Shown here piece after piece: positions 1-12,849 of a stretch of 64,000 nucleotides of DNA. Each line of letters begins with the position of its first letter. Positions within the stretch are counted from its first letter, which is position 1. The translations under genes and the position numbers were made by a program. Source of the stretch: Cytophagales bacterium (lineage in GTDB: Bacteria; Bacteroidota; Bacteroidia; Cytophagales; CCMP332). The stretch spans positions 1-64,000 of the forward strand of contig JANQSY010000148.1 in assembly GCA_028279065.1 (NCBI GenBank), written 5' to 3'. Below the pieces are notes generated by a model. The model was not told the DNA's origin. It saw only the letters and a program-made list of their open reading frames with translations, and ran no database searches.

Positions 1-531
1 TAAGAGTGCGAACTCCCCTCCCAAGCTCAGCAATTTCTGATAGGCCAATTCAATTTCAGACAGGGTGGAACCACCTGTTGAAAGAAGGATAGGTCTGTCC
101 AATTTGCATGCCTGTTCCAGAAAGGGATGATTGGTAAGGTCTCCCGATGCGATCTTTATTGCCGCAAGCTCCAGATCAAGGCATAGCTGAAGAGATTGCT
201 CATCAAAGGGGGTCAGAAGAAAATCAATCTCAAGCTGATCTGCCAGGGATTTGCATTCCTTGATCTCCGGAATGGAGAGTTCTAGATGTTCGCGATGCTC
301 TCCATAGGTCGAGCCAAAGCTATTCTTTCCCTGATATGGTTTGTTATAAAAATCCTTGGTGAAAAGGGTTTTGTTTGATCTTTTCTGAAGCTTTACAGCA
401 TCAGCCCCTGATACAGCGGCCTGCCTGATCAGTTCTAGTGCTTTGTTTAAATTACCCTGATGGTTATGGCCTATTTCCGCAATCAAATAGCAGGAAGATC
501 CTTTTCCTATTTGCTTGTTTCCAATGATCAT
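1..531 (-). CDS. NeuB/SpsE-like nonulosonic acid synthase (3' part beyond window)
   Basis: Only the N-terminal 177 or so residues are present; the rest lies before base 1. Reading from ATG at 531, the protein opens MIIGNKQIGKGSSCYLIAEI, continues with GHNHQGN and later shows KLQKR, LLTPFD, KIASGD and STGG. This is the NeuB TIM-barrel pattern (sialic, legionaminic or pseudaminic acid synthase), which condenses phosphoenolpyruvate with an N-acyl hexosamine to a nine-carbon 3-deoxy-2-ulosonic acid in the cytoplasm. The start overlaps the stop of the upstream cytidylyltransferase gene in an ATGA, so the two are translationally coupled. The family is clear; the sugar substrate cannot be told from this fragment, and the C-terminal SAF domain is out of view. 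Confidence 0.88.
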   Translation of the reverse strand, partial: MIIGNKQIGKGSSCYLIAEIGHNHQGNLNKALELIRQAAVSGADAVKLQKRSNKTLFTKDFYNKPYQGKNSFGSTYGEHREHLELSIPEIKECKSLADQLEIDFLLTPFDEQSLQLCLDLELAAIKIASGDLTNHPFLEQACKLDRPILLSTGGSTLSEIELAYQKLLSLGGEFALL

Positions 532-1193
532 GTCTTTGATCTTTTTAATTCAACAAATAATTCCTGAGCTACCTTGAAATCCAGGGGGGTATCAATTTCT
601 ACTGTTTCCTGTTCGAGTACAAAAAAATATGGATGCCTTCCGATCGGATATTGGAGGCTTAACAGCAAGGCCTTTTGAATAATGAACGATGCATCCATAG
701 AGTAAAGAGGGTCAAGATCCTGTGACGATCTATGCCATTTTCCAAATTGGAAATTAACAGGTTGTCCATTTTTGGAAAAGAAAAACTCCTTGTGGCTTTT
801 AACAGTTAGCAGAGAATCATGATCCCCTTTTTGATCCTCCCAGGTTCTGATCAACGCTGAATAATCTGAGAAAAGGGGAGAGGTGACCTCTGTCCAAAGT
901 ATATCCTCGGAATCTTCAATTGGAAGGTCTTCTAAGATGCCTGTAACGGCCTCTGACCATGCTGTATCATCTGAAGCCAAGACCGATTCCCTGAGATGGA
1001 AGTTTATTCCATAATGATCCGAAATTGATCTCCTGCTTTCTTGATCGCAAGAGAGGAATATGTCCGAAGCTTGAAAACATTGCAAAAGCTGCTCGATCTT
1101 TATTTGGGTCAATGAAATTCCCTCATAAAATTCCCTCCAATTTTTATTTGGCACCCTGGTTGAATTCTCTTTTGCGGGGATGATAACTTTCAT
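528..1193 (-). CDS. CMP-sugar (acylneuraminate-type) cytidylyltransferase
   Basis: A 221-residue protein of the NeuA/PseF/SpsF family, which activates a nonulosonic acid with CTP to a CMP-sugar. The nucleotide-binding motif is at the extreme N-terminus (VIIPAKENSTRVPNKN), followed by LSCDQ, a TEVTSPLFS segment in the place of the usual TSP motif, and a C-terminal VEIDTPLDFKVAQE that matches the family's IDtxxDl region. I chose ATG at 1193, one base after the stop of the WaaA-like gene; a TTG nine bases upstream (1202) is in frame but would overlap that gene. It lies directly before the NeuB-like gene, so synthesis and activation of the same sugar are coupled. The sugar is unknown. Confidence 0.85.
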   Translation of the reverse strand: MKVIIPAKENSTRVPNKNWREFYEGISLTQIKIEQLLQCFQASDIFLSCDQESRRSISDHYGINFHLRESVLASDDTAWSEAVTGILEDLPIEDSEDILWTEVTSPLFSDYSALIRTWEDQKGDHDSLLTVKSHKEFFFSKNGQPVNFQFGKWHRSSQDLDPLYSMDASFIIQKALLLSLQYPIGRHPYFFVLEQETVEIDTPLDFKVAQELFVELKRSKT

Positions 1194-1194
1194 T

Positions 1195-2397
1195 TTATTC
1201 AATGTTCATTTTGCTTAGTATACTTTTGGTAGCACCGGCTTTGGATCTTACCAGTTCAGACCCTTTTCCATGGATCTTGTTTTGATCAAGTTCCAGCCAA
1301 TGATCTGCAAGTTCTTCCACGGATTCAAAAACCTTAAGTATTCCTCTGGCTTTAAATTCAACCGCTTCCTTTTCAGCATTTATGGATGGACCCGAAAAAA
1401 TGGGGACATCAAATACCGCAGCCTCCAAAATATTATGAACTCCTTCCTTATTAAAACCTCCCCCGATAATAGCTGCCTCAGCCTGGGAATAATACCAGAA
1501 AAGCAGCCCTAAGCGCTCTTCCAGGATATGTGGAAAGCCAGCACCCTCCAGGGAATCTCTAATTGAGCTTATATTCTCCTTCCCCAGGTCGTGAGGCAGG
1601 ACGGCGACCTTCCATTTCTTGGATAATCTGTTTTCAATCAGATAATATGCTTTGGTGACGAATTTTAACTCTTGTAAATAAGCGCTCCCCAGCACCATCC
1701 ACGAAAATTGGTCTTCCAAATCTAAAGTTGAACCATTTTGGTCAAGTTTTCTTTGCAGGACCCTGTCGTATTTTGTGTCTCCGCTTATTTGGATTGTAGG
1801 TCCTATTGAACCCTTGGAACCCCAGCCAGATATATTTTCGGTCAAGTGGATCTCATCAAAAAATCCCAAAAAAAACCTTTTTGTGAGCCTGGAAAAGAAG
1901 GTAGCATCGGGACGTTCCGAGATATTCACCCCGATAAGTTTGGATCTGGTCCTGGTCGAAAAGATCATGCCTGGCCAAAACCCGTGCCGGATCAATATGA
2001 CCATCTTCGGCCTGATATGCTTAAATATTTTGGCCCAATCCCATTGCGCATCAGACCTGATCATGAAATAGGGATCCTCCAATCCTATGCTTTTGGCATA
2101 ATGAAAGCCGGAGGCTGAAAAGAATAAAATCACCGGGTCCATCTGTTTTTCCAGCTCTTTAATAATAGGTAAAGCCTGCTCTAATTCTCCGGCGCTTGAA
2201 CAAAATATGATTACCGTTTCCTTTATGTTATCACGGTCTGGCATGAAATATTTTTCCATTTCCCTTGACCCAAGTTGGAATCTGATCTTTGAGTTTATTG
2301 GCAGCAATACCTTAAGTATCAGAAGAAACAACTCCCAAAAGAGGCTATAAATAAATAGCAAGATCCCGATGATGATATGGTTCCTTCTTGTTTTCAA
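1195..2397 (-). CDS. WaaA-like (Kdo transferase family) glycosyltransferase
   Basis: A 400-residue protein with an N-terminal membrane anchor (about residues 8-30). It has the two-domain layout of WaaA/KdtA: AGELEQALPII carries the conserved Glu that is catalytic in that family, SGDTKYDRV matches the GDTRFDRV strand, LPHDLGKEN stands where WaaA has APHEI, and GGGFNKEGVHNILEAAVFD is the C-terminal CMP-binding signature. Known WaaA moves Kdo from CMP-Kdo to lipid A at the inner membrane face. This copy is divergent and sits beside genes for another CMP-activated ulosonic acid, so I infer it may transfer that sugar. It could also be the only Kdo transferase of the genome. Start is TTG, overlapping the previous stop as TTGA. 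Confidence 0.72.
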   Translation of the reverse strand: MKTRRNHIIIGILLFIYSLFWELFLLILKVLLPINSKIRFQLGSREMEKYFMPDRDNIKETVIIFCSSAGELEQALPIIKELEKQMDPVILFFSASGFHYAKSIGLEDPYFMIRSDAQWDWAKIFKHIRPKMVILIRHGFWPGMIFSTRTRSKLIGVNISERPDATFFSRLTKRFFLGFFDEIHLTENISGWGSKGSIGPTIQISGDTKYDRVLQRKLDQNGSTLDLEDQFSWMVLGSAYLQELKFVTKAYYLIENRLSKKWKVAVLPHDLGKENISSIRDSLEGAGFPHILEERLGLLFWYYSQAEAAIIGGGFNKEGVHNILEAAVFDVPIFSGPSINAEKEAVEFKARGILKVFESVEELADHWLELDQNKIHGKGSELVRSKAGATKSILSKMNIE

Positions 2398-3458
2398 TTG
2401 AGTTTACTGATCAAAAACCTTGAGATCTCCGCGGCATCAAGTTTCGTAAAGCACAATTTGTCCTGGTATCTGCATTTTCCTGCCCCTCCCTTAGTACAGG
2501 GGCGGCATCCCAGGTTCACCGAAAAGGCCTTGCTTTCATTGAGAAATGGTTCATAACCAAATTCTTCAACGGTAGGACCAAAAAGCATTGCCACCGGTGT
2601 TTGGACCGCTTCTGACAAATGAGCAAGGGCGGTATCATTGCTAAGGGAAGCTTTACAATTTGAGAGCAGTTGAGCATTTTGGTACAGGCTGGTACTTCCG
2701 CAGAGATTTTCGATGACCTGTGATCTGGAAAAAAATTCTTCCAATGAATCGGCTACCTTGCGGTCCTCCTGATCCCCTAACAACAAGATCCCTATCGGCT
2801 CCTTACTTCCTTCAATTAATGTCCCAAGGATCTCTTGAAAGATCTTTAATGGCGCACGCTTAAGGGGATATTTTCCCGCCGGCATTACCGCGATCCAATT
2901 TTTTATCGAGGGTCGGGTGGAAAGAACTTCAGGTATAAATGATGCGACTGGTAAGTTCGGTTGAGAGCCATTAGTGGAGTTGGAATTCAAAGCCTTTCCC
3001 AAACAGTCCAGCATCATTTGATATCTCTTCGGATACTGAGTTGCTGGTCTTTTTTCCCTTTTCCTTCCCCGCAAAAAGGATAGGAATACCATCATTGAAC
3101 GTTTAATACTTTGTTTGTTCCAGGTGTGATACTTCGCCCTTTTCGCTTTCGCTAATCTTGAACACAAAAAAAGTGACCTGGAGGATCTTTTGAGATCTAA
3201 TACGATGTCCAACTCGCCAATTTGTTGGGTGATCTCTTTTAGCATTCGGAGATTCGGCGTACTCCGATCAAGTCTTATCTGGACAAGCTCCGGATAGGAT
3301 CTTTCGATCAAGCCTGAGATCGGCTCATAACTGATCCAATAGATCTTTGGAATCGGGTCTAATCGAAATAAATAATGCAGGCATGCTGTGGAAAGTATGG
3401 CATCACCGATCCCATCTGTTCGATATATCGCTATTGATATGGACTTTCCCTGGTCCAC
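2394..3458 (-). CDS. GT9 heptosyltransferase-like protein
   Basis: A 354-residue glycosyltransferase family 9 protein, the family of the ADP-heptose:LPS heptosyltransferases WaaC/WaaF/WaaQ. It shows the N-terminal AIYRTDGIGDAILSTACL (loop after the first strand), the C-domain PAGKYPLKRAPLKIF region, and the nucleotide-binding LSNDTALAHLSEAVQTPVAMLFGPT. The C-terminal tail has the cysteine cluster usual in GT9 (CRPCTKGGAGKC, then LC). GTG is the likely start at 3458, eight bases after the aminotransferase stop. It probably extends an LPS or capsule-like core from the cytoplasmic side. The sugar donor may be a heptose or another ADP-sugar. Confidence 0.85.
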   Translation of the reverse strand: MDQGKSISIAIYRTDGIGDAILSTACLHYLFRLDPIPKIYWISYEPISGLIERSYPELVQIRLDRSTPNLRMLKEITQQIGELDIVLDLKRSSRSLFLCSRLAKAKRAKYHTWNKQSIKRSMMVFLSFLRGRKREKRPATQYPKRYQMMLDCLGKALNSNSTNGSQPNLPVASFIPEVLSTRPSIKNWIAVMPAGKYPLKRAPLKIFQEILGTLIEGSKEPIGILLLGDQEDRKVADSLEEFFSRSQVIENLCGSTSLYQNAQLLSNCKASLSNDTALAHLSEAVQTPVAMLFGPTVEEFGYEPFLNESKAFSVNLGCRPCTKGGAGKCRYQDKLCFTKLDAAEISRFLISKLN

Positions 3459-3466
3459 TCTTCAGA

Positions 3467-4771
3467 TCAATAATGGAAAACCGGGGAGATGACCTTTCCT
3501 TCTATTGCCGGCTTTACCTTTCTGTTTTTTATGCATCTTGAAAAAACCTCCAGAGTGGAATTTAAGGCCTCCATGGTCAATTCGAATTCATTCTCTCCAT
3601 GAGAATAGCTAATAGCAATATGATCCATCAATATTCCTCCTTTTATCATTTCCTGCACGAAGAGGGTTTTAAGTTCAAGGCTACTTGCAAGATCCGTCTC
3701 TTGGAATGACAGTCCCGGGCGACAGGGATAGCCTGTGATATGAATATGGTCTGATAAGCCGGATCCTTGTATCAATTCTTTCATTCCATCTTTCAGTTTT
3801 CTCCCATAATCCCATATATGCTGGATGACCGGCTCATTTTTAAAAACCTTAACGGTTGCTTGGGCCGCTGTTAACCCAACCAATTCGGCCCCATTAGTGC
3901 ATGAGAGGAGGAATACCGGACCTTCCAAATTTCCCAGTTCCATCAACTCCCTGGGGCCCAAAAGAGCAGAACATGGGAAACCATTTGCAAAGCCTTTTCC
4001 GATCGTGAACAAGTCGGGTTTCACATTAAATAAATGCTGAGCGCCTTTCAGATCCCAGCGGAATCCCGTGATTATCTCATCAAGGATAAACAGACTACCA
4101 TTCTTATGGCACAGTTCCCGGACCTTATGAAGAAATCCATCTTTGGGTTCCTCGAAGGTCATGGGTTCAAGAATAACTGCAGCGATCTTTTTTGGGTTTT
4201 CTTCAAATAGCGATCTGATCCCCTCAAGATCATTATAGCTGCCTCTTAGGACCATTTTTTTTACCGCTTCAGGAACTCCTCCGGATTTTGACGTAGAACC
4301 AATGAACCAATCATTAAAACTATGAAAGGGCTGTTCCTTGATCCGGATGACCAGATCACGACCTGTATAGGCTCTGGCGATCCTAATGGCAGCTGAGGTT
4401 ACATCCGATCCATTTTTTGAGAACTTGATCATTTCGGCATTATCGAACAGTTCAACCAGCTCCTCTGCAAGTTCCCCCTCTAAAATGCTTGGACGAGAAA
4501 ATGAGTTTCCCTTACCTAGTTGCCCTTTTATAGCCTCAGTGACCGTAGGATAAGCGTGGCCAAGGGAAACAGAGCATAGGCTCAAACCATAATCCACAAA
4601 TGAGTTCCCATCGGTGTCCTGGCAAATTGCTCCTTTCCCTGAGGTAAAAAAGGCAGGAGTATTTTCAGGGAAGACATGATCGGACCGAGAGTAAGTATGT
4701 GCTCCGGAGGGAATCAGGTCATGCGCCCGTTTCCTGAAATTTTCTGTCTGGTTCACTTTGAAGTTTTTCAT
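3467..4771 (-). CDS. Class III (glutamate-1-semialdehyde aminomutase-like) PLP aminotransferase
   Basis: A 434-residue fold-type I PLP enzyme. The N-terminus (RKRAHDLIPSGAHTYSR) resembles HemL-type proteins, LFILDEIITGFRW holds the PLP-binding Asp, and FTIGKGFANGFPCSALLG holds the Schiff-base Lys. The normal hemL role is unlikely given the neighbours: GSA-aminomutase paralogs are known in operons with SpsE/NeuB and SpsF/NeuA homologs, where they are thought to aminate a sugar precursor. The start overlaps the radical SAM gene by 53 bases. I keep it because the family's N-terminal helix begins at this methionine. Substrate unknown. Confidence 0.8.
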   Translation of the reverse strand: MKNFKVNQTENFRKRAHDLIPSGAHTYSRSDHVFPENTPAFFTSGKGAICQDTDGNSFVDYGLSLCSVSLGHAYPTVTEAIKGQLGKGNSFSRPSILEGELAEELVELFDNAEMIKFSKNGSDVTSAAIRIARAYTGRDLVIRIKEQPFHSFNDWFIGSTSKSGGVPEAVKKMVLRGSYNDLEGIRSLFEENPKKIAAVILEPMTFEEPKDGFLHKVRELCHKNGSLFILDEIITGFRWDLKGAQHLFNVKPDLFTIGKGFANGFPCSALLGPRELMELGNLEGPVFLLSCTNGAELVGLTAAQATVKVFKNEPVIQHIWDYGRKLKDGMKELIQGSGLSDHIHITGYPCRPGLSFQETDLASSLELKTLFVQEMIKGGILMDHIAISYSHGENEFELTMEALNSTLEVFSRCIKNRKVKPAIEGKVISPVFHY

Positions 4772-5816
4772 TTAGTATGGGAATATCGCATTGGGATACG
4801 CAAAAGTGGTCTCTTGGAAAATTCCCCTTAATGTGCATCTTTCTAAAAGTCCTGTACTTCTGGCCATTCCATATCTCCTTGATCGAGTTGTTATGGACAT
4901 TCCCCATCACATTCTCTCCATTGTACTCCAGGGGGCAGGGGACAACATCTCCATTTTGTAAAATTGACATAGAGGTCCAGGGATGCTCGCAATAACGGTG
5001 CATGTACTCGGCCGAGTTTTTTACCGAATCCTCCTCTTCATATAACCATCGATTGTGCTGATTTTTTATGTAGGCAAAAACATCATGTTTTTTCCAGAAA
5101 TCGAGGAATTTCTGATCCAACTCATCCCTCTGGTTGAATTTTAGCTTGGCCAGGACCAGCCTGGTTTTATATCCTTTTGATTTAAATAGTTCCAGGATCT
5201 TTATGATCCTCTGTTGGGTTTCCTCATAGGATCTGTCAATCCGACCTCGATAGAACTTTTGAGTTTCGTTGTCCAACCCGTCCAAATGGAATTTTAAGTA
5301 ACTCAGCCCGGCCTGACCTAGTTGATCCATAACGGATAATCGGGCATTGACCGGGTTTGCCGAGAAGTAGGTCCTGATCCCGCTTTGGGTGCAATAGCGT
5401 ACGCGATCCACAATTTTTTTGTCCATCAATGGTTCTCCGAACCCATGCAATGTGATGGATTGAGAACAGATGAAGTGGTAGAAATAATCTTCCTCGGAAG
5501 CCATCGAATTTTTAAGCCCATGATCTTCGATGTATTTGTCCCAAAGGATCAGTTCATCCTGGGAAAATCCACTCATTTGGTCTATAATGGTTTTGAATGT
5601 GGTCATGTCCATATGACCGATGTCCCGATCCATGTGCTCTGTTCTTGGGCACATCACACAGGTCATATTGCAGGCATTGGTGGTTTCTATTTGGTATACC
5701 CTTGGGTTTTCGCTGCGGAGATCCTCGAGCTTGGTAAATAGGTTGTCAACCGGTTTGCCATCTAGGACGTGTTGGCGTAAAGAGAGGCTTTTTCTTACAA
5801 AGGATATGTCAAACAT
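4719..5816 (-). CDS. Radical SAM/SPASM-domain enzyme
   Basis: A 365-residue protein, the first gene of the sugar operon in reading order. The radical SAM cluster motif CNMTCVMC (Cys49, Cys53, Cys56) is followed by an unusually long stretch before HGFGEPLMD, and the C-terminal third has the SPASM/twitch cysteines (CEHPWTSMS, GDVVPCPLEYNG, FCVSQC) with NSIKEIWNG, typical of auxiliary Fe-S domains. Relatives oxidise, epimerise or deaminate sugars, or modify peptides. In this operon a sugar or aminoacyl-sugar substrate is the best guess. Its last 17 codons overlap the start of the aminotransferase. Confidence 0.82.
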   Translation of the reverse strand: MFDISFVRKSLSLRQHVLDGKPVDNLFTKLEDLRSENPRVYQIETTNACNMTCVMCPRTEHMDRDIGHMDMTTFKTIIDQMSGFSQDELILWDKYIEDHGLKNSMASEEDYFYHFICSQSITLHGFGEPLMDKKIVDRVRYCTQSGIRTYFSANPVNARLSVMDQLGQAGLSYLKFHLDGLDNETQKFYRGRIDRSYEETQQRIIKILELFKSKGYKTRLVLAKLKFNQRDELDQKFLDFWKKHDVFAYIKNQHNRWLYEEEDSVKNSAEYMHRYCEHPWTSMSILQNGDVVPCPLEYNGENVMGNVHNNSIKEIWNGQKYRTFRKMHIKGNFPRDHFCVSQCDIPILNEKLQSEPDRKFQETGA

Positions 5817-6006: not shown

Positions 6007-7899
6007 TCAAGCCCTCATTCCTAAGACGCAAACGTCATCCAACTGCTCTTCTTCTCCTCTCCAGGATTCAAAGGCCATTCGGAGGAGTTCTTTTTGCTGA
6101 TCCATGGGGTTCTCAAATAAACCAACCAGAAGCTCCTTGAAGCGCTTATACATGTATTTTTTACCCTTGGGGCCCCCGAATTGATCGGGAAAGCCATCGG
6201 TGCTGAGGTATACCGTATCTCCTTTTCTCAGCTGGATCTCGTGGTTCTCGAATGGGGTAGGGTGGTCGAACTGCCCTATCGGTTGCTTGTCACCCTTGAT
6301 ATCCTCCATCACCATTCTGCCATTGTCTTTCCGTACAAGAAAAAGGCGATTGTTTGCTGCGGCGAAATCCAGTTTTTTGGATTTAATATCATAGCAGCAA
6401 AGGCTGATGTCCATACCGTCCTTGACATCATCATCGCTTTCCTGGAACTGTTCCACAACCAATTCCCTGGTCTTGTCAAGGATATCCGAAGCCTTGGTCA
6501 TGCCGAACTCCCGAACGCTTCTGTTCAGGGCGTTATGGCAAACTATGCTGACAAAGGCCCCCGGCACTCCATGTCCGGTGCAATCCGCAGCAGCGAAGAT
6601 GATCCTATCCTTGCTTTGATCCATCCAATAAAAATCCCCGGCCACGATGTCCTTGGGCTGGTAGAATATAAAGCTTTGATCCAGGTAGCTCTGGACGATC
6701 TTATCTGAAGGCAGTATGGCAGATTGAAGTCGCTTGGCATAGGTGATGCTATCGGTTATCTTTTGATTCTTCTCCTCAACGATCGCTTTCTGTTCCTCAA
6801 TGATCCTGTTTGCTGCAACCTTGGCCTTATAATTCCTGTAGATGAAATAACCCAGGATGATCGCGATGGTCAAAAAAACCGCCATCACATAAATGATATA
6901 CTTATGGCTCTTCAACTCTCCATATTGCTCCCTGATGGTCAGTTCCTTTCCAAGTAGGATCTTTTCCTTCCTCGCTAGATCCGCATTGATCTTTCTTTCC
7001 TGCTTTTGAAGCTTCTCTACTTCCTTATGTTTTTCATCCAGAATCCGGTTTTGTTCCTCCAGTTCGCTATGCTTCTTTTCCCGTTCCCTCACCAGGGCAT
7101 TGATGCTTCGTCTTTGGGCATCCATTTTCTTTTGATTCTCTTCCATTTCCTCCTGTTGTTCTCTTTGTTGTTCCAACAGGGCCTGCAGGTCCTCAGTCTC
7201 CACTTTGACCTTCTTTTTTGAGCTGGTTGCAAGTCGGCTAAGGTCACCCATGAAATCATTGTACTCGTCTTCTTCTTCCTGGCTGATGGGTTTTTCGGTC
7301 TCCAGGTCTATGTTAAGAGAGGAAAGGGCAATGCTCGGTTGTTTGATATTGCTTTCCTTTTTGACCTCCCTTGAAGAGGCTTCGATGATCTTATCGGTAT
7401 ATACGAACCCAAGTCGATCCATATTCCCGGTTCCCAACTCAAAATTCAATTCGCCATGCGCCCTGAAGAAATCCACATGCGCCCCTGATTTGATCATCCC
7501 CTTGTTCTCGGTAAGGATAAGTACAGGCTTGTTTCGGAATTGCCATATGACCAACGCGGAATATTCATCCAGGTAAGCGGGTATATAAAAGACATGGGGT
7601 TGGTCATTTCCGGCTATTACATCTGTTTTGTTTACCCTGATCTTCCTGCCATTTACGTTGCGGTTCTTTTCCCAGGTTTTGAAATACTTGAAGGTAGGGG
7701 AGTTGCCAAGAATGTAAATGTTAAAGTCCCCCTTTGAATATGACCCGGGCCACTCCACATTCTCGATGATCTTCCAGGTGTCCAGGGTGATGTACTTATA
7801 ATCATTCGGACCCTGGCCAATATCTTCATTGGCTTGTCCTATGAAAGGATAAGCAAGGATTGCTATGGAAACCAGAATAATTCTAAATCCGAAGGGCAT
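6007..7899 (-). CDS. YfiR-like sensor fused to a SpoIIE/PP2C-type phosphatase
   Basis: A 630-residue inner-membrane signalling protein. Residues 1-23 are a signal peptide; 36-178 resemble the periplasmic YfiR domain (VEWPGSYSKGDFNIYILG, LILTENKGMIKSGAHVDFF, GELNFEL); 235-330 form a charged coiled coil; 334-355 are a membrane helix; 395-630 are a PPM/SpoIIE serine phosphatase. The metal-binding motifs are all present: GDFYW (421), DCTGHGVPGAF (439), STDGFPDQFGG (566) and LDDVCVLG (620). Such phosphatases usually act on anti-anti-sigma or STAS partners, but none is encoded nearby. It is likely to turn an envelope signal into dephosphorylation. ATG at 7899. Confidence 0.82.
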   Translation of the reverse strand: MPFGFRIILVSIAILAYPFIGQANEDIGQGPNDYKYITLDTWKIIENVEWPGSYSKGDFNIYILGNSPTFKYFKTWEKNRNVNGRKIRVNKTDVIAGNDQPHVFYIPAYLDEYSALVIWQFRNKPVLILTENKGMIKSGAHVDFFRAHGELNFELGTGNMDRLGFVYTDKIIEASSREVKKESNIKQPSIALSSLNIDLETEKPISQEEEDEYNDFMGDLSRLATSSKKKVKVETEDLQALLEQQREQQEEMEENQKKMDAQRRSINALVREREKKHSELEEQNRILDEKHKEVEKLQKQERKINADLARKEKILLGKELTIREQYGELKSHKYIIYVMAVFLTIAIILGYFIYRNYKAKVAANRIIEEQKAIVEEKNQKITDSITYAKRLQSAILPSDKIVQSYLDQSFIFYQPKDIVAGDFYWMDQSKDRIIFAAADCTGHGVPGAFVSIVCHNALNRSVREFGMTKASDILDKTRELVVEQFQESDDDVKDGMDISLCCYDIKSKKLDFAAANNRLFLVRKDNGRMVMEDIKGDKQPIGQFDHPTPFENHEIQLRKGDTVYLSTDGFPDQFGGPKGKKYMYKRFKELLVGLFENPMDQQKELLRMAFESWRGEEEQLDDVCVLGMRA

Positions 7900-7963: not shown

Positions 7964-9547
7964 TTATTGTTTCAGCATCCTGCCAGAGTAGAATTTATTC
8001 TCAACCCTTAATCTGTAGGTAAAAAGTCCGGTGGGAATATTATGGCAAGCGTTGATGCGTATTTTGTTTTGCTCAGTGGTGCCTGAAATGGACCTTACTT
8101 TTTTCCCTGTTAGGTCTTGTATCTCCAGGATAAATTTCACTCCCTCGCGCCATTTTCCTGAAATCCGGAATTCAGAATGAAAGGGATTAGGAAAAACACT
8201 GCTGCTCTCTTTCCCATTAAAGGATTTGATCCCCATCATCCCGCTGTCTGTGAACTTTCCTATCAGTGTTCCATCATTATTTGCAGAAAGGTCCAGGAAA
8301 TCGGCTCCCAAAAAGAAGTTATTATTATCAATGATCAGAAGATCCCTGGGCCTAAGACGGAAGAACCCAAAATCAAAAGAAGAAAAGCCGTTTACCCCAA
8401 ATCCTGCTGTATCCGGGATTCCGTCTGGCAGGAACCTCAGCAGCCCGGTATTCTCATCAAACTGCACAAAATAAGGGCCGATTACAATGATCTTACCATC
8501 CGGTTGAACCTTCATATCAGAATAACCAAACATTTGCCCTCCCGGAAGGGTATCATTAAATGCGAGACCGTTAAATCCAAAACTCTGAACCAACTGGCCT
8601 GATGAAGTATCAAGACATGCGATCATAGGTACTCCGTTTCCTGGACCCAAATGACCTGCAAGCAGCAGATCGCCACTTATGGTCAAAGCCATGATCCCAG
8701 AATGGGCAAGGACTGGTTCTCCAACAGAAATTAAGTAATGAACCCCAAGCGCCGAAAAGGAGGAGTCAAAAGAGCCGTCAAGATTTAGTTTAGCAACAAA
8801 AATGAAGGCATTGTTTGAGACCGTAGGTTCGAGCCCCGTGCCGCTCACCATTACCTTGCTGTGACCTGTAAGGAATACGTCTGAAAATTCAGTACCCAAA
8901 AGATCTCCCCAGATCCAGACTCCCTGATCGGCAAAGCTATTATCCATAGTTCCGTTCTTGTTCAGCCTGACAAGAAAAGACTTGGTCGGTTGACTAGGTC
9001 CGGGACTTAAATCACCTCCCACCAATAGCTTCCCGTCATCCTGTACAAGGATCTTCTTGGGATTCTCATAATGCCCGAGATCTAAGAGTTTTTGGCCATT
9101 TTGTCCGAAGGTAGAGTCCAAATTCCCATTGGAGTCCAGCTTGATAATGGCCACATCCTGTGGTGAGAAAAAAGTGTCCTGCACAGAGCATAGGAGGTAA
9201 ATTTCCTGGGAGAGCGGATCAAGCGCTAGATCAAAAAGATAAGGTAAATCCTCTAAAACAATTGTTGTAATCCCATTCTGCCCAAAGCTGCCGTCTACAA
9301 TTCCATTTTGATCCAGTTTCAGGACCTCGATCTTGAACCACCAATGGGCAGCGTTGGTGACCGCGAGATTCCTGGCATGAATGATGTCACCGTTTCTCGT
9401 TTGTTCAAATTTCCCTTCAATGTGGATCTGTGAATTGTTGGATAAGCTCACATAGCCATTTGCTCCAAAAGACGGATCAGGATACCCGTGTTGTGCTCGG
9501 ACAGCGAATGATGAAAGGATCAGGATCAGGCATAAGGTTGTTTTCAT
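7964..9547 (-). CDS. T9SS-secreted delta-60-repeat protein (copy 1)
   Basis: A 527-residue secreted protein. Signal peptide MKTTLCLILILSSFAVRAQ, then repeats of the delta-60 type, each carrying a D-x-S/T-F-G-x-x-G core (PDPSFGANGY, DGSFGQNGI, DSTFGQNGQ, and later DTAGFGVNGF), probably a beta-propeller-like fold. It ends in a type A T9SS sorting domain (VFPNPFHSEFRISG through FTYRLRVENKFYSGRMLKQ). I chose the ATG at 9547 because the signal peptide begins there; 19 extra codons upstream lack sense. It is one of three tandem paralogs. The role is unknown: cell-surface or released. Confidence 0.8.
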   Translation of the reverse strand: MKTTLCLILILSSFAVRAQHGYPDPSFGANGYVSLSNNSQIHIEGKFEQTRNGDIIHARNLAVTNAAHWWFKIEVLKLDQNGIVDGSFGQNGITTIVLEDLPYLFDLALDPLSQEIYLLCSVQDTFFSPQDVAIIKLDSNGNLDSTFGQNGQKLLDLGHYENPKKILVQDDGKLLVGGDLSPGPSQPTKSFLVRLNKNGTMDNSFADQGVWIWGDLLGTEFSDVFLTGHSKVMVSGTGLEPTVSNNAFIFVAKLNLDGSFDSSFSALGVHYLISVGEPVLAHSGIMALTISGDLLLAGHLGPGNGVPMIACLDTSSGQLVQSFGFNGLAFNDTLPGGQMFGYSDMKVQPDGKIIVIGPYFVQFDENTGLLRFLPDGIPDTAGFGVNGFSSFDFGFFRLRPRDLLIIDNNNFFLGADFLDLSANNDGTLIGKFTDSGMMGIKSFNGKESSSVFPNPFHSEFRISGKWREGVKFILEIQDLTGKKVRSISGTTEQNKIRINACHNIPTGLFTYRLRVENKFYSGRMLKQ

Positions 9548-9615
9548 TAAGGTTAGTTTTCTCAATCTATAAAGGAAACAAAACGGAAGTAAGGGTTGGT
9601 TCATGGAGATATGAA

Positions 9616-11196
9616 CTATTGTTTGACAAGCTTTCCTTGAATAGATCTACCGTCAATGTTGAGCCGGTAGAATACGATCCCAGGTGAGACTGCACTGATA
9701 TCCTGAACTTTTACTTCTCCTTTTCCGGAACGACCCGATTGGGAATATACTTTCATGCCATCGGCCCGATAAATTTCCAGTTCAAAGGGAGATCCTTTTG
9801 ACCAATTTCCAATTATTCGGAATGCCCCTTCTGTTGGATTAGGAAAAGCCTTGTGGCTTAAGCTTTGCCTTGCATTTGATAGTCCGGTGATTTGACCCTT
9901 TGTGAATTTTGAAAGGAAAGATCCGTATTCGAATAAGGATGATCCTGAGAAAGACCCAGTAATCAGGAAACTATCATTGTCGAGGATAAAAAGATCTTCT
10001 GGTGAAAATGAAAAATTAGTTCCGAAATTCTCAATTACAATTCCTTTTTCTCCAAACGATAATGAGTCCACGGAGCCGGTCGAGTCAAATCTGACAATAG
10101 CCAAGGCTACCTTGCCATTTACATATTCGCTTGATAAAGCAATTAACTTTCCATCCGGTTGAATTCCGATCGCCCTGAAATCGTTAAAGTATGTTAAGGA
10201 ATCAGGATTAATGTTTGCGATCCCACTGTCTCCAAAGGTTTGAATAAGATTTCCGGAGTTTGGATCGAAAGCTGCAATTATAGGGACCCAGTTAAAATTC
10301 TCCCTTCCACCGCCAACCAAAATATGGCCTGCTGAATTTTGGGTTATGCAGGACCCACCTGTGGACTCACCCTGTGGAAGCATTAAAAAGGTGAAGCCGG
10401 AGAAGCCAAATGCAGTATCCAGGCCGCCATTTGGAGTCATCTTTATTACGGTTAAAGAGTTGGTCCAGGGATTTACAATCGTTTTGCACCCCCCTGCTAA
10501 GAAAATTTCTCCTGAAGGGCTAATGGTAATATCCCTTATTGGACAACTTGAAAAGGGTTGTAACTCGAATATCCCCTGGTTTGCGAACCCACTATCCAAC
10601 TCCCCATTTTTTTTGATTCTGAATGCAACTATCCTCTTATCGTTGTTATTCAATATAGAATTTCCTGCTACAACTATTTTTCCATCACTCTGAACTTTAA
10701 TTGAATGGGGGATCTCTCTATTACCAATATCCAACCGGAACATTCCATCCTGGGCAAAAGAGGAATCGATAACCCCATTGGAATCTAGTTTGGCGATCAG
10801 GAAATCTGAACCGAAGGGAGAGGGACCTGTGATTGCCAAGCCCAAGTAAAGCGCCCCACTGCTTGTATCCAATGCTGATTCTTTTACATCACCTAAATTG
10901 CTTTTCCATATTTGGGCATTTCCATTTATTCCATATGTGCTGTCAATGGTGCCGTTTTTGTTCAAGCGAAACGCTTCAAAACCATATCCAGTGGGAGGGT
11001 TTTGGATAGTATCAGCTATGCCCCTTGACAGTAGGATCTTGCCATCGGATTGGCGGACACATGAGGCTTGCACAAAAGGAGAAGCTGGAAAAATGGTTAC
11101 CAACCCTCCATTTCCAAAGGTGGTATCAGGATACCCGTGCTGTGCTTGAAGAATTAATGAAGAAAGGATCAGGATCAGGCATAAGGATGTTTTCAT
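9616..11196 (-). CDS. T9SS-secreted delta-60-repeat protein (copy 2)
   Basis: A 526-residue paralog of its neighbours. Signal peptide MKTSLCLILILSSLILQAQ, delta-60 cores (PDTTFGNGG, DSTYGINGN, DSSFAQDGM, DTAFGFSGF), and a C-terminal T9SS sorting domain (AFPNPTEGAFRIIGNW through IVFYRLNIDGRSIQGKLVKQ). The start at 11196 is set by the signal peptide. The bases before the ATG and through the signal-peptide codons are almost identical to those of copy 1, which argues for recent duplication or gene conversion. Function unknown. Confidence 0.8.
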   Translation of the reverse strand: MKTSLCLILILSSLILQAQHGYPDTTFGNGGLVTIFPASPFVQASCVRQSDGKILLSRGIADTIQNPPTGYGFEAFRLNKNGTIDSTYGINGNAQIWKSNLGDVKESALDTSSGALYLGLAITGPSPFGSDFLIAKLDSNGVIDSSFAQDGMFRLDIGNREIPHSIKVQSDGKIVVAGNSILNNNDKRIVAFRIKKNGELDSGFANQGIFELQPFSSCPIRDITISPSGEIFLAGGCKTIVNPWTNSLTVIKMTPNGGLDTAFGFSGFTFLMLPQGESTGGSCITQNSAGHILVGGGRENFNWVPIIAAFDPNSGNLIQTFGDSGIANINPDSLTYFNDFRAIGIQPDGKLIALSSEYVNGKVALAIVRFDSTGSVDSLSFGEKGIVIENFGTNFSFSPEDLFILDNDSFLITGSFSGSSLFEYGSFLSKFTKGQITGLSNARQSLSHKAFPNPTEGAFRIIGNWSKGSPFELEIYRADGMKVYSQSGRSGKGEVKVQDISAVSPGIVFYRLNIDGRSIQGKLVKQ

Positions 11197-11265
11197 TAAG
11201 GTTAATTTTCCCCAATTTAATAAGGAACTGATCAATAAAAAAGGGCTTATTCCTTCAAACCGGGT

Positions 11266-12849
11266 TTATTGCTTTACCAGTTTTCCCCGAGCCGATCTAC
11301 CCTCAATGTTGAGCTGGTAAAAGAAGATGCCAGGTGAGGTCGCGCCCAGATCCCTTACCAAAATTTCTCCATTTCCTGCAAAACCTGATTGGGACGATAT
11401 TTCTCTGCCATCAGCTCGGTTGATCTCCAATTTGAAACGTGATCCTTCGGGCCAGTTTCCACTTATGCGAAAACCTCCTTTAGTTGGGTTTGGATATACA
11501 ATATGCTTGAGGTCAGGTTTTTGGGCAGAAATGTTACTCAAAATCCTTGTTGAATATTTGGCCAGGTAGGTTCCGTAGTCAACTGTAGTAAAGTTCTCGT
11601 ATGACCCTGCAATAAGAAAACTGTCGTTATCGAGTATCAAAATATCGCTTGGCTCTATTTCTGCATTGATCTGAAAACCTTCCACCGAGATTCCATTTGT
11701 TCCAAATCCTGCTGAATCAATGGTCCCCCCGGGAAGGAACCGTACAACAATGCAGGGGTCCAGTCCTGGTTGATGGTACCTTCCTGTGCCTAAGATCATT
11801 CCATTGGGTTGGACCTCAATATCATTGAAAAAAAACAGGGTGCTTCCTGGGGAGTTCTCAAATTTCGTAAATCCGTTTTCTCCAAAAGTGCTGTCCTGAA
11901 GCCCGGAGGAAGAATCGTATGCCACTATAATTGGGAAAACCCCATTGTCCAAAAATTGGCCTCCGACGAGCAGCTTTCCATTCCCGGAGAGGGTAATTGG
12001 TCCACCATAGGAGTCTCCTGAACTGCTGGAATTAAAGAAAGTGGTTCCATGAGATCCGAATGTCGAATCCAAAGTTCCATTTGAATTCAGCTTGATAACG
12101 GAATTGTAAAATGAAGGGATCAGGTTGGGATCTTCACCTGTTCCGGAAACAAAGATCTTATTGTTACCACTAATTACTAAGTCTGTTGGACCGGTTCTAT
12201 TGAAAGGATTCAGAAGGACTATACCATTGTTTCCAAAGGTCGAATCCAATTCTCCAGTCTTCTTAAGTCGAAAAACCAAGGTTTCTATTGAGGTTGCCTG
12301 AAAAGTGGATGTTGAAGCCACAACCATAATTTTCCCATCATCCTGAACCTCGATGGCGACCGGATCGTCATAAAAATTCAGGTCAAGATTAAAGAATCCG
12401 GCTTGAGCAAATGAAGTATCAAAAAACCCAAGTGTATCGATCCTTATAATCAGGATGTTCCTTCCAACGGTTACAGAATCAACCGTGGATAAGGCAAGGT
12501 ACTTTTCCCCTGTGTTTGGATCGATTTCAGTATCATGCAGGTTCAATAGACTATCGATTGCTATCCTCGAAATCCCCTGATTACCATAGCCCTGATCCAG
12601 GGAGCCATTTGGAAATAGTCGAAGATTTTCGACCACCAGGTTGATGTCGGGATAAATCGCATCGTTGAAAAGTCGTGAGTGATAGATTAACCCATCATGT
12701 GTCCTCAGAAATGAGCCCGAAACATGGAGGTCACCAGGATTTGTGAGGTCTAAGAACCCTCCATTTCCAAAAGTCGTATCCGGGAATCCATGCTGTCCAA
12801 ATGCCTGAATGCAAAAAAGGATAGAAAGAACATAGATCAGTTTTCTCAA
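11266..12849 (-). CDS. T9SS-secreted delta-60-repeat protein (copy 3)
   Basis: A 527-residue protein starting at TTG 12849; there is no other initiator close to the signal peptide (MRKLIYVLSILFCIQAFGQ). It carries delta-60 cores (PDTTFGNGG, DQGYGNQGI, DSTFGNNGI, DSTFGSHGT, DSTFGENGF) and a T9SS sorting domain (VYPNPTKGGFRISGNW through IFFYQLNIEGRSARGKLVKQ). It is first in reading order of the three paralogs and shares the middle and C-terminal layout with them. A TAAACTTG sequence upstream (7 of 8 matches to the -7 consensus) could be its promoter. Function unknown. Confidence 0.78.
   Translation of the reverse strand: MRKLIYVLSILFCIQAFGQHGFPDTTFGNGGFLDLTNPGDLHVSGSFLRTHDGLIYHSRLFNDAIYPDINLVVENLRLFPNGSLDQGYGNQGISRIAIDSLLNLHDTEIDPNTGEKYLALSTVDSVTVGRNILIIRIDTLGFFDTSFAQAGFFNLDLNFYDDPVAIEVQDDGKIMVVASTSTFQATSIETLVFRLKKTGELDSTFGNNGIVLLNPFNRTGPTDLVISGNNKIFVSGTGEDPNLIPSFYNSVIKLNSNGTLDSTFGSHGTTFFNSSSSGDSYGGPITLSGNGKLLVGGQFLDNGVFPIIVAYDSSSGLQDSTFGENGFTKFENSPGSTLFFFNDIEVQPNGMILGTGRYHQPGLDPCIVVRFLPGGTIDSAGFGTNGISVEGFQINAEIEPSDILILDNDSFLIAGSYENFTTVDYGTYLAKYSTRILSNISAQKPDLKHIVYPNPTKGGFRISGNWPEGSRFKLEINRADGREISSQSGFAGNGEILVRDLGATSPGIFFYQLNIEGRSARGKLVKQ

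Follow-up and report, generated by a model that had tools for sequence, protein, structure and literature searches.

To our knowledge, the characterised glycosyltransferases of the WaaA/KdtA family (CAZy GT30) use as donor the cytidine monophosphate (CMP) form of 3-deoxy-D-manno-oct-2-ulosonic acid (Kdo), or close derivatives of it. An alcohol dehydrogenase and an aminotransferase together convert Kdo into the amino sugar Kdo8N. An additional Kdo transferase, KdoT, which likewise uses CMP-Kdo, has been described in Acinetobacter (PMC12856342). In the synthase NeuB, Arg314 places the N-acetyl group of N-acetylmannosamine and an R314A variant is inactive (PMC6795526), whilst the radical SAM (rSAM) enzyme BtrN carries out the two-electron oxidation of an amino-cyclitol and holds one four-Cys auxiliary cluster (PMC9012708). 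Here we analysed positions 1 to 64,000 of contig C123 (JANQSY010000148.1; hereafter the window), which belongs to a Bacteroidota draft genome of 3.59 Mb in 191 contigs (G000, the host), and describe at the start of the window a six-gene cassette encoding a WaaA-like GT30 protein (WaaAL) together with relatives of NeuB and BtrN. On balance, we lean towards the view that this self-contained cassette makes and attaches a 3-deoxy-2-ulosonate other than Kdo, probably amino-substituted, which the WaaA paralogue would move to a lipopolysaccharide (LPS)-type glycolipid. No description of the cassette was found in the open-access papers searched.

The six genes occupy the minus strand from base 5816 down to base 1, in the order rSAM/SPASM protein, class III aminotransferase, GT9 glycosyltransferase, WaaAL, CMP-sugar synthetase and NeuB. 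Gaps between successive genes were -53, +8, -4, -8 and -4 bp, the first of these being a 53-bp overlap of the rSAM and aminotransferase genes. The initial annotation had listed six overlapping or abutting genes of these families, and every one was recovered as an open reading frame (ORF) at the position given, with its Pfam family above cut-off (Table 1). One correction was needed, in that the window NeuB comprises the first 177 codons of a gene that runs off the end of contig C123; no second NeuB was found in the host genome. A complete NeuB of 348 aa was present in a Cytophagales bacterium of the same genus (G001, record JANQHS01), in which all six genes were found and the operon ended after NeuB.

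The initial annotation had also suggested a neighbourhood search across Bacteroidota, and this returned the gene set as a unit in six genomes. Besides the window, the identical order was found in G001, in a Flavobacteriales cassette (L041, genome G480), in a Bacteroidia cassette (L042, genome G481), on a 301-kb contig from another family of the order to which the window belongs (G008) and in a further family (G543). L041 and L042 were located with the aminotransferase alignment; a contig scan using WaaAL alone as query gave no matches. Given this recurring order, a chance association of the six genes is excluded. Where flanking sequence was present, it was different in cassettes from beyond the genus, and the cassettes had no additional gene in common; in L042 the cassette filled the entire contig. 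End-to-start gene overlaps recurred among the cassettes, the rSAM and aminotransferase genes being always the first two and always overlapping. Identity to the window proteins was 47-72 % for the rSAM enzyme, 49-76 % for the aminotransferase and 26-55 % for WaaAL. Trees of five of the six cassette proteins agreed on the topology ((L042,G008),((window,G001),(L041,G543))), with the placement of L041 outside in the rSAM tree as the sole difference. As these topologies depart from the host orders, horizontal movement of this conserved cassette as a unit is probable, with ancient presence followed by many losses as a less likely alternative. The cassette was rare, occurring in 4 of 390 genomes of the order and in 1 of 395 genomes of the class sampled around G480. 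Aminotransferase searches of plasmids and phages returned relatives in polysaccharide loci and none with the cassette.

The six WaaAL proteins formed a clade of their own (support 100/100) relative to 16 canonical Bacteroidota WaaA sequences and the verified WaaA enzymes of E. coli (b3633) and Aquifex (2xci), and so did not cluster with verified Kdo transferases; two members were long-branched, which makes the branching inside the clade less sure. All six nonetheless belong to the family by domain content, with PF04413 (Glycos_transf_N) scoring 37-74 bits against a cut-off of 23.9. The AlphaFold model of the window protein (mean predicted local distance difference test score, pLDDT, 81.5) showed an N-terminal helix at residues 2-31, and its best Foldseek match was Aquifex WaaA 2xci (E 2.6e-18). 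Canonical WaaA features retained in WaaAL include S-x-G-E, D at 116, W141, P268, G-G-x-F, H321 and E325. In the window protein the motifs read S-x-G-E (E71), G-D-T-K-Y-D-R and G-G-G-F...G-x-H-N-x-x-E; the S, G and E columns of the first and the GG..F, H and E columns of the last were invariant in all six proteins, with Cys replacing Asn in one. By contrast, several positions fixed in nearly all canonical WaaA, among them W53, H55, Y105 and Y131 (numbered as in the host canonical WaaA), were lost in six of six. Sequence and model thus place WaaAL as a protein with the predicted WaaA fold, with catalytic and donor-side motifs kept, in a distinct GT30 clade. It shares with WaaA/KdtA the fold, the N-terminal helix, S-x-G-E and the C-terminal CMP-site motifs, and is set apart from it by the separate clade, by the lost Trp, His and Tyr residues, by its coexistence with a canonical waaA and by its coupling to NeuB and a NeuA-like synthetase.

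Two other candidate discriminators were discarded. The window WaaAL has Gly at the E98-type acidic position before FW(P), which might be taken for a catalytic loss, but Glu is kept in four of the six WaaAL and the Gly is therefore genus-specific. The NCBIfam WaaA equivalog cut-offs do not discriminate either, because the host canonical WaaA (117 bits) falls below the required 363 bits or more, as do the WaaAL proteins (62-116 bits).

The next fold family matched by the WaaAL model was that of the UDP-N-acetylglucosamine 2-epimerases (E 2e-10, some 1e8 weaker). As the cassette is without NeuC, and NeuC-type epimerases are among these matches, WaaAL might be imagined as a GT-B-fold sugar-nucleotide 2-epimerase supplying the NeuB substrate instead of a transferase. 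We consider this very improbable, given that both sequence and fold fit WaaA far better and that the N-terminal helix, S-x-G-E and G-G-x-F...H-N-x-x-E are all kept.

A second, canonical waaA and the genes for Kdo supply were looked for elsewhere, as the initial annotation had proposed. The host carries a canonical waaA on C97, separate from the cassette, kdsB on C58 (324 bits against a cut-off of 193) and a kdsA split across a contig gap; a second, canonical waaA was also present in G001, G480, G008 and G543. The availability of housekeeping CMP-Kdo allows for WaaAL being a second Kdo or Kdo8N transferase, the sugar made by NeuB and the CMP-synthetase going to another transferase. The donor usage of GT30 enzymes and the existence of extra Kdo transferases such as KdoT speak for this, whereas the WaaAL gene invariably comes immediately before those of the CMP-synthetase and NeuB, often with an overlap, and WaaAL shows the same tree grouping as these two proteins. 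Moreover, the cassette encodes just one further transferase, GT9, and CMP donors are not known for that family. We therefore rate a second Kdo transferase as rather unlikely. Our proposal for WaaAL resembles KdoT in adding a further, non-WaaA-only CMP-ulosonate transfer in the inner core and differs in donor, which is CMP-Kdo for KdoT (PMC12856342) and would be another ulosonate for WaaAL; the comparison is one of function.

Directly upstream of host kdsA (on C64) are genes for a DegT aminotransferase and an iron-containing alcohol dehydrogenase, which we take to be KdnA/KdnB-like, no curated model scoring above its cut-off. The pair is probably KdnA/KdnB, and the ordinary Kdo of the host may therefore be Kdo8N. 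No such combination of DegT aminotransferase and iron alcohol dehydrogenase was found within the cassette. The cassette would follow the logic of the Kdo8N module (KdnA/KdnB with KdsA, KdsB and WaaA), namely oxidation, amination, CMP activation and GT30 transfer, with an rSAM enzyme, a class III aminotransferase and NeuB in place of the iron alcohol dehydrogenase, the DegT aminotransferase and KdsA.

Numbered by alignment with N. meningitidis NeuB, the cassette NeuB proteins kept the catalytic, phosphoenolpyruvate (PEP) and metal residues E25, K53, Q55, T110, K129, S132, S154, S213, H215, E234, H236 and D247 wherever the sequence covers them, the window copy being partial. The sugar pocket was altered (N74S, E134D, N184S, T285A/S, F288K and R314S), and position 314 was Ser in all four copies long enough to include it. 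E134 and R314 are both retained in a conventional NeuB encoded in a plasmid locus (L079). The replacement of Arg314 and of other pocket residues suggests a substrate that lacks the usual 2-acetamido group or is bound differently, for example in phosphorylated form. The Pfam NeuB domain was detected in all tested copies and SAF above cut-off in two of the three complete ones. The CMP-sugar synthetase was nearer to PseF/NeuA than to KdsB; it contains the motifs PAKxxSTRVxNKN and EIDT and, as expected of a CMP-ulosonate synthetase, a CTP_transf_3 domain with the CTP-binding signature.

Resemblance of the synthase to TIGR03569 and of the synthetase to PseF might indicate an ordinary nonulosonate pathway, for N-acetylneuraminic acid, legionaminate or pseudaminate, with its early genes elsewhere in the genome. 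All four complete cassette NeuB nevertheless failed to reach either equivalog cut-off (191-278 of 400 for TIGR03569; 169-240 of 340 for TIGR03586), other residues stand where the N-acetyl sugar would be held, and NeuC, LegB/C, PseB/C and N-acetyltransferase were missing from all six cassettes, the rest of the genome not having been searched. An ordinary pathway is hence improbable, and the finding that the initial annotation had set against its own reading, a plain legionaminate or pseudaminate synthase with complete standard pathway genes nearby, was not made. The cassette enzyme shares fold family, catalytic Glu, and PEP and metal residues with the NeuB/SpsE synthases (1xuu, 1vli), and differs from them in E134D, F288K and R314S, in falling below the Neu and Pse cut-offs and in the standard precursor genes missing from its cassette. 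Separately, a homologue sharing 47 % identity with the cassette NeuB, and having the same E134D/F288K/R314S changes, was seen on a plasmid of Streptomyces sp. NBC_01237 (L086). It adjoins an apparent nonribosomal peptide synthetase-type cluster, whose genes include those for a transketolase, RmlD, HAD and a class III aminotransferase.

In the rSAM enzyme, the CX3CX2C motif (C49, C53 and C56) and C276, C294, C339 and C343 were invariant in five cassettes; there are exactly four such further Cys in the SPASM region, fitting one four-Cys auxiliary cluster. BtrN was the only relative of solved structure found. The aminotransferase is of the glutamate-1-semialdehyde (GSA) type (NF004856/PRK06209; 530.8 bits against a cut-off of 486), with its pyridoxal phosphate (PLP) lysine K259 and D231 invariant, and its solved-structure matches were GSA aminomutases and sugar C-6' aminotransferases. 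Its plasmid relatives sit in surface-polysaccharide loci. The simplest reading of these sequences is that the two proteins would form an oxidise-then-aminate pair. The butirosin pair likewise combines a PLP aminotransferase with an rSAM enzyme that holds a single four-Cys auxiliary cluster, and differs in its distant sequence and in the cell-surface sugar context of the cassette; the aminotransferase of the butirosin pair also belongs to a different class.

Since SPASM/twitch enzymes catalyse many reactions (PMC9012708), the match to BtrN is distant and related rSAM enzymes sit in varied surface-polysaccharide loci, the pair might instead modify the acceptor, or the rSAM enzyme might perform epimerisation or other chemistry. 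We think this unlikely: the two genes, invariably first and mutually overlapping, encode the most conserved members of the cassette (47-76 % identity), as expected of sugar-building enzymes, which diverge slowest, with the two transferases diverging fastest. That pattern is what would be expected of a constant sugar and a varying acceptor. Plasmid relatives of the rSAM enzyme were 26-30 % identical, and NeuB adjoined them in none of the loci read. One rfb-type polysaccharide locus on a Brachyspira hyodysenteriae plasmid (L089) contained at least six radical SAM/SPASM genes.

In the proposed pathway, the rSAM enzyme, acting like BtrN, would oxidise a hydroxyl group of a sugar, and the aminotransferase would turn the resulting carbonyl into an amine, giving an amino sugar. 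NeuB would condense PEP with an aldose, probably not a 2-acetamido sugar, to a 3-deoxy-2-ulosonic acid, the synthetase would activate this product to its CMP form, and WaaAL would transfer the ulosonate to an LPS-type membrane glycolipid. GT9 would act on the same chain, adding a neighbouring residue; it could use ADP-heptose, as a heptose-7-P kinase-like gene, scoring just below cut-off, is present in the host genome. The initial annotation had likewise suggested that WaaAL may be adapted to transfer a new ulosonate to an LPS-like core extended by GT9. A protein that groups with verified Kdo transferases in a genome with no other waaA, which would have told against that reading, is not what was seen, and the canonical waaA elsewhere, the separate WaaAL clade, the non-standard NeuB and the conserved unit support the reading in part. 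For the rest of it we infer the sugar identity, the order of steps and the functions of the rSAM enzyme and aminotransferase, with the LPS core as presumed acceptor, GT9 working on the same chain and the rSAM/aminotransferase pair acting on the precursor, not on the finished sugar or acceptor.

Several observations weigh against this pathway. No acceptor gene is linked to the cassette. Canonical waaA was not found in the 2.5-Mb metagenome-assembled genome that carries L042 (G481), where WaaAL stood alone; there it could be the sole Kdo transferase, a real replacement, or the assembly could be incomplete. F288K and R314S were read from relatives only, the window NeuB being partial, and human-type NeuB is also without the Arg, so that R314S may instead point to a phosphorylated substrate. 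The similarity between the rSAM enzyme and BtrN is distant (7e-14, at the domain level), and the rSAM structure model was poor (pLDDT 55) and unusable for fold comparison.

Table 1. Positions of the cassette genes and of other features discussed; coordinates without a locus prefix refer to the window
Feature	Position	Strand	Support or remark
Radical SAM/SPASM protein, 365 aa	4719..5816	-	Pfam Radical_SAM 48 bits, SPASM 62 bits
Class III aminotransferase, 434 aa	3467..4771	-	Pfam Aminotran_3 142 bits
GT9 (heptosyltransferase-family) glycosyltransferase, 354 aa	2394..3458	-	Pfam Glyco_transf_9 70 bits
WaaAL (GT30 transferase), 400 aa	1195..2397	-	Pfam Glycos_transf_N/WaaA 47 bits
CMP-sugar synthetase, 224 aa	528..1202	-	Pfam CTP_transf_3 49 bits
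NeuB-family PEP-condensing synthase, 5' part, 177 aa	1..531	-	Pfam NeuB 114 bits
SpoIIE/PP2C-like phosphatase	6007-7899	-	
Three tandem paralogous ORFs	7964-12849	-	546, 539 and 527 aa
SpoIIE/PP2C-like phosphatase, G001	L039:2-1465		
Complete NeuB, G001	L039:6829-7875		
HAD-family phosphatase, Flavobacteriales cassette	L041:13903-14535		
NeuB homologue, Streptomyces plasmid	L086:11962-13029		
Radical SAM/SPASM-rich rfb-type locus, Brachyspira plasmid	L089:1784-14542		
DegT aminotransferase and iron-containing alcohol dehydrogenase, host	L090:2437-5323 (G000:C64)		

Upstream of the cassette, a SpoIIE/PP2C-like phosphatase gene was present in both congeners, and the insertion site is therefore common to the genus. 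Beyond it in the window are the three tandem paralogous ORFs, whose products have repeated 'G.LD.sFG..G' units and C-terminal sorting-like domains. A sigma-70 promoter and terminator scan upstream of the cassette, which does not cover Bacteroidota promoters, found nothing. In the Flavobacteriales cassette only, a HAD-family phosphatase gene lies 4 bp after NeuB, which could indicate a phosphorylated ulosonate intermediate.

In sum, we tentatively propose, as a possibility that we hold with less than even confidence, a GT30 clade that in Bacteroidota LPS would use a new amino-substituted 3-deoxy-2-ulosonate donor, made by way of an rSAM dehydrogenase, a class III aminotransferase and a re-shaped NeuB. 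With a distinct GT30 clade and enzymes for donor synthesis in one conserved cassette, a new donor specificity in the essential WaaA family becomes directly testable, and the cassette is small and complete enough for joint expression and assay of its genes. If the proposal is true, LPS chemistry would gain a sugar of the nonulosonate type and possibly a radical-SAM route to amino sugars, and the LPS of these Bacteroidota would carry a previously unknown acidic amino sugar.

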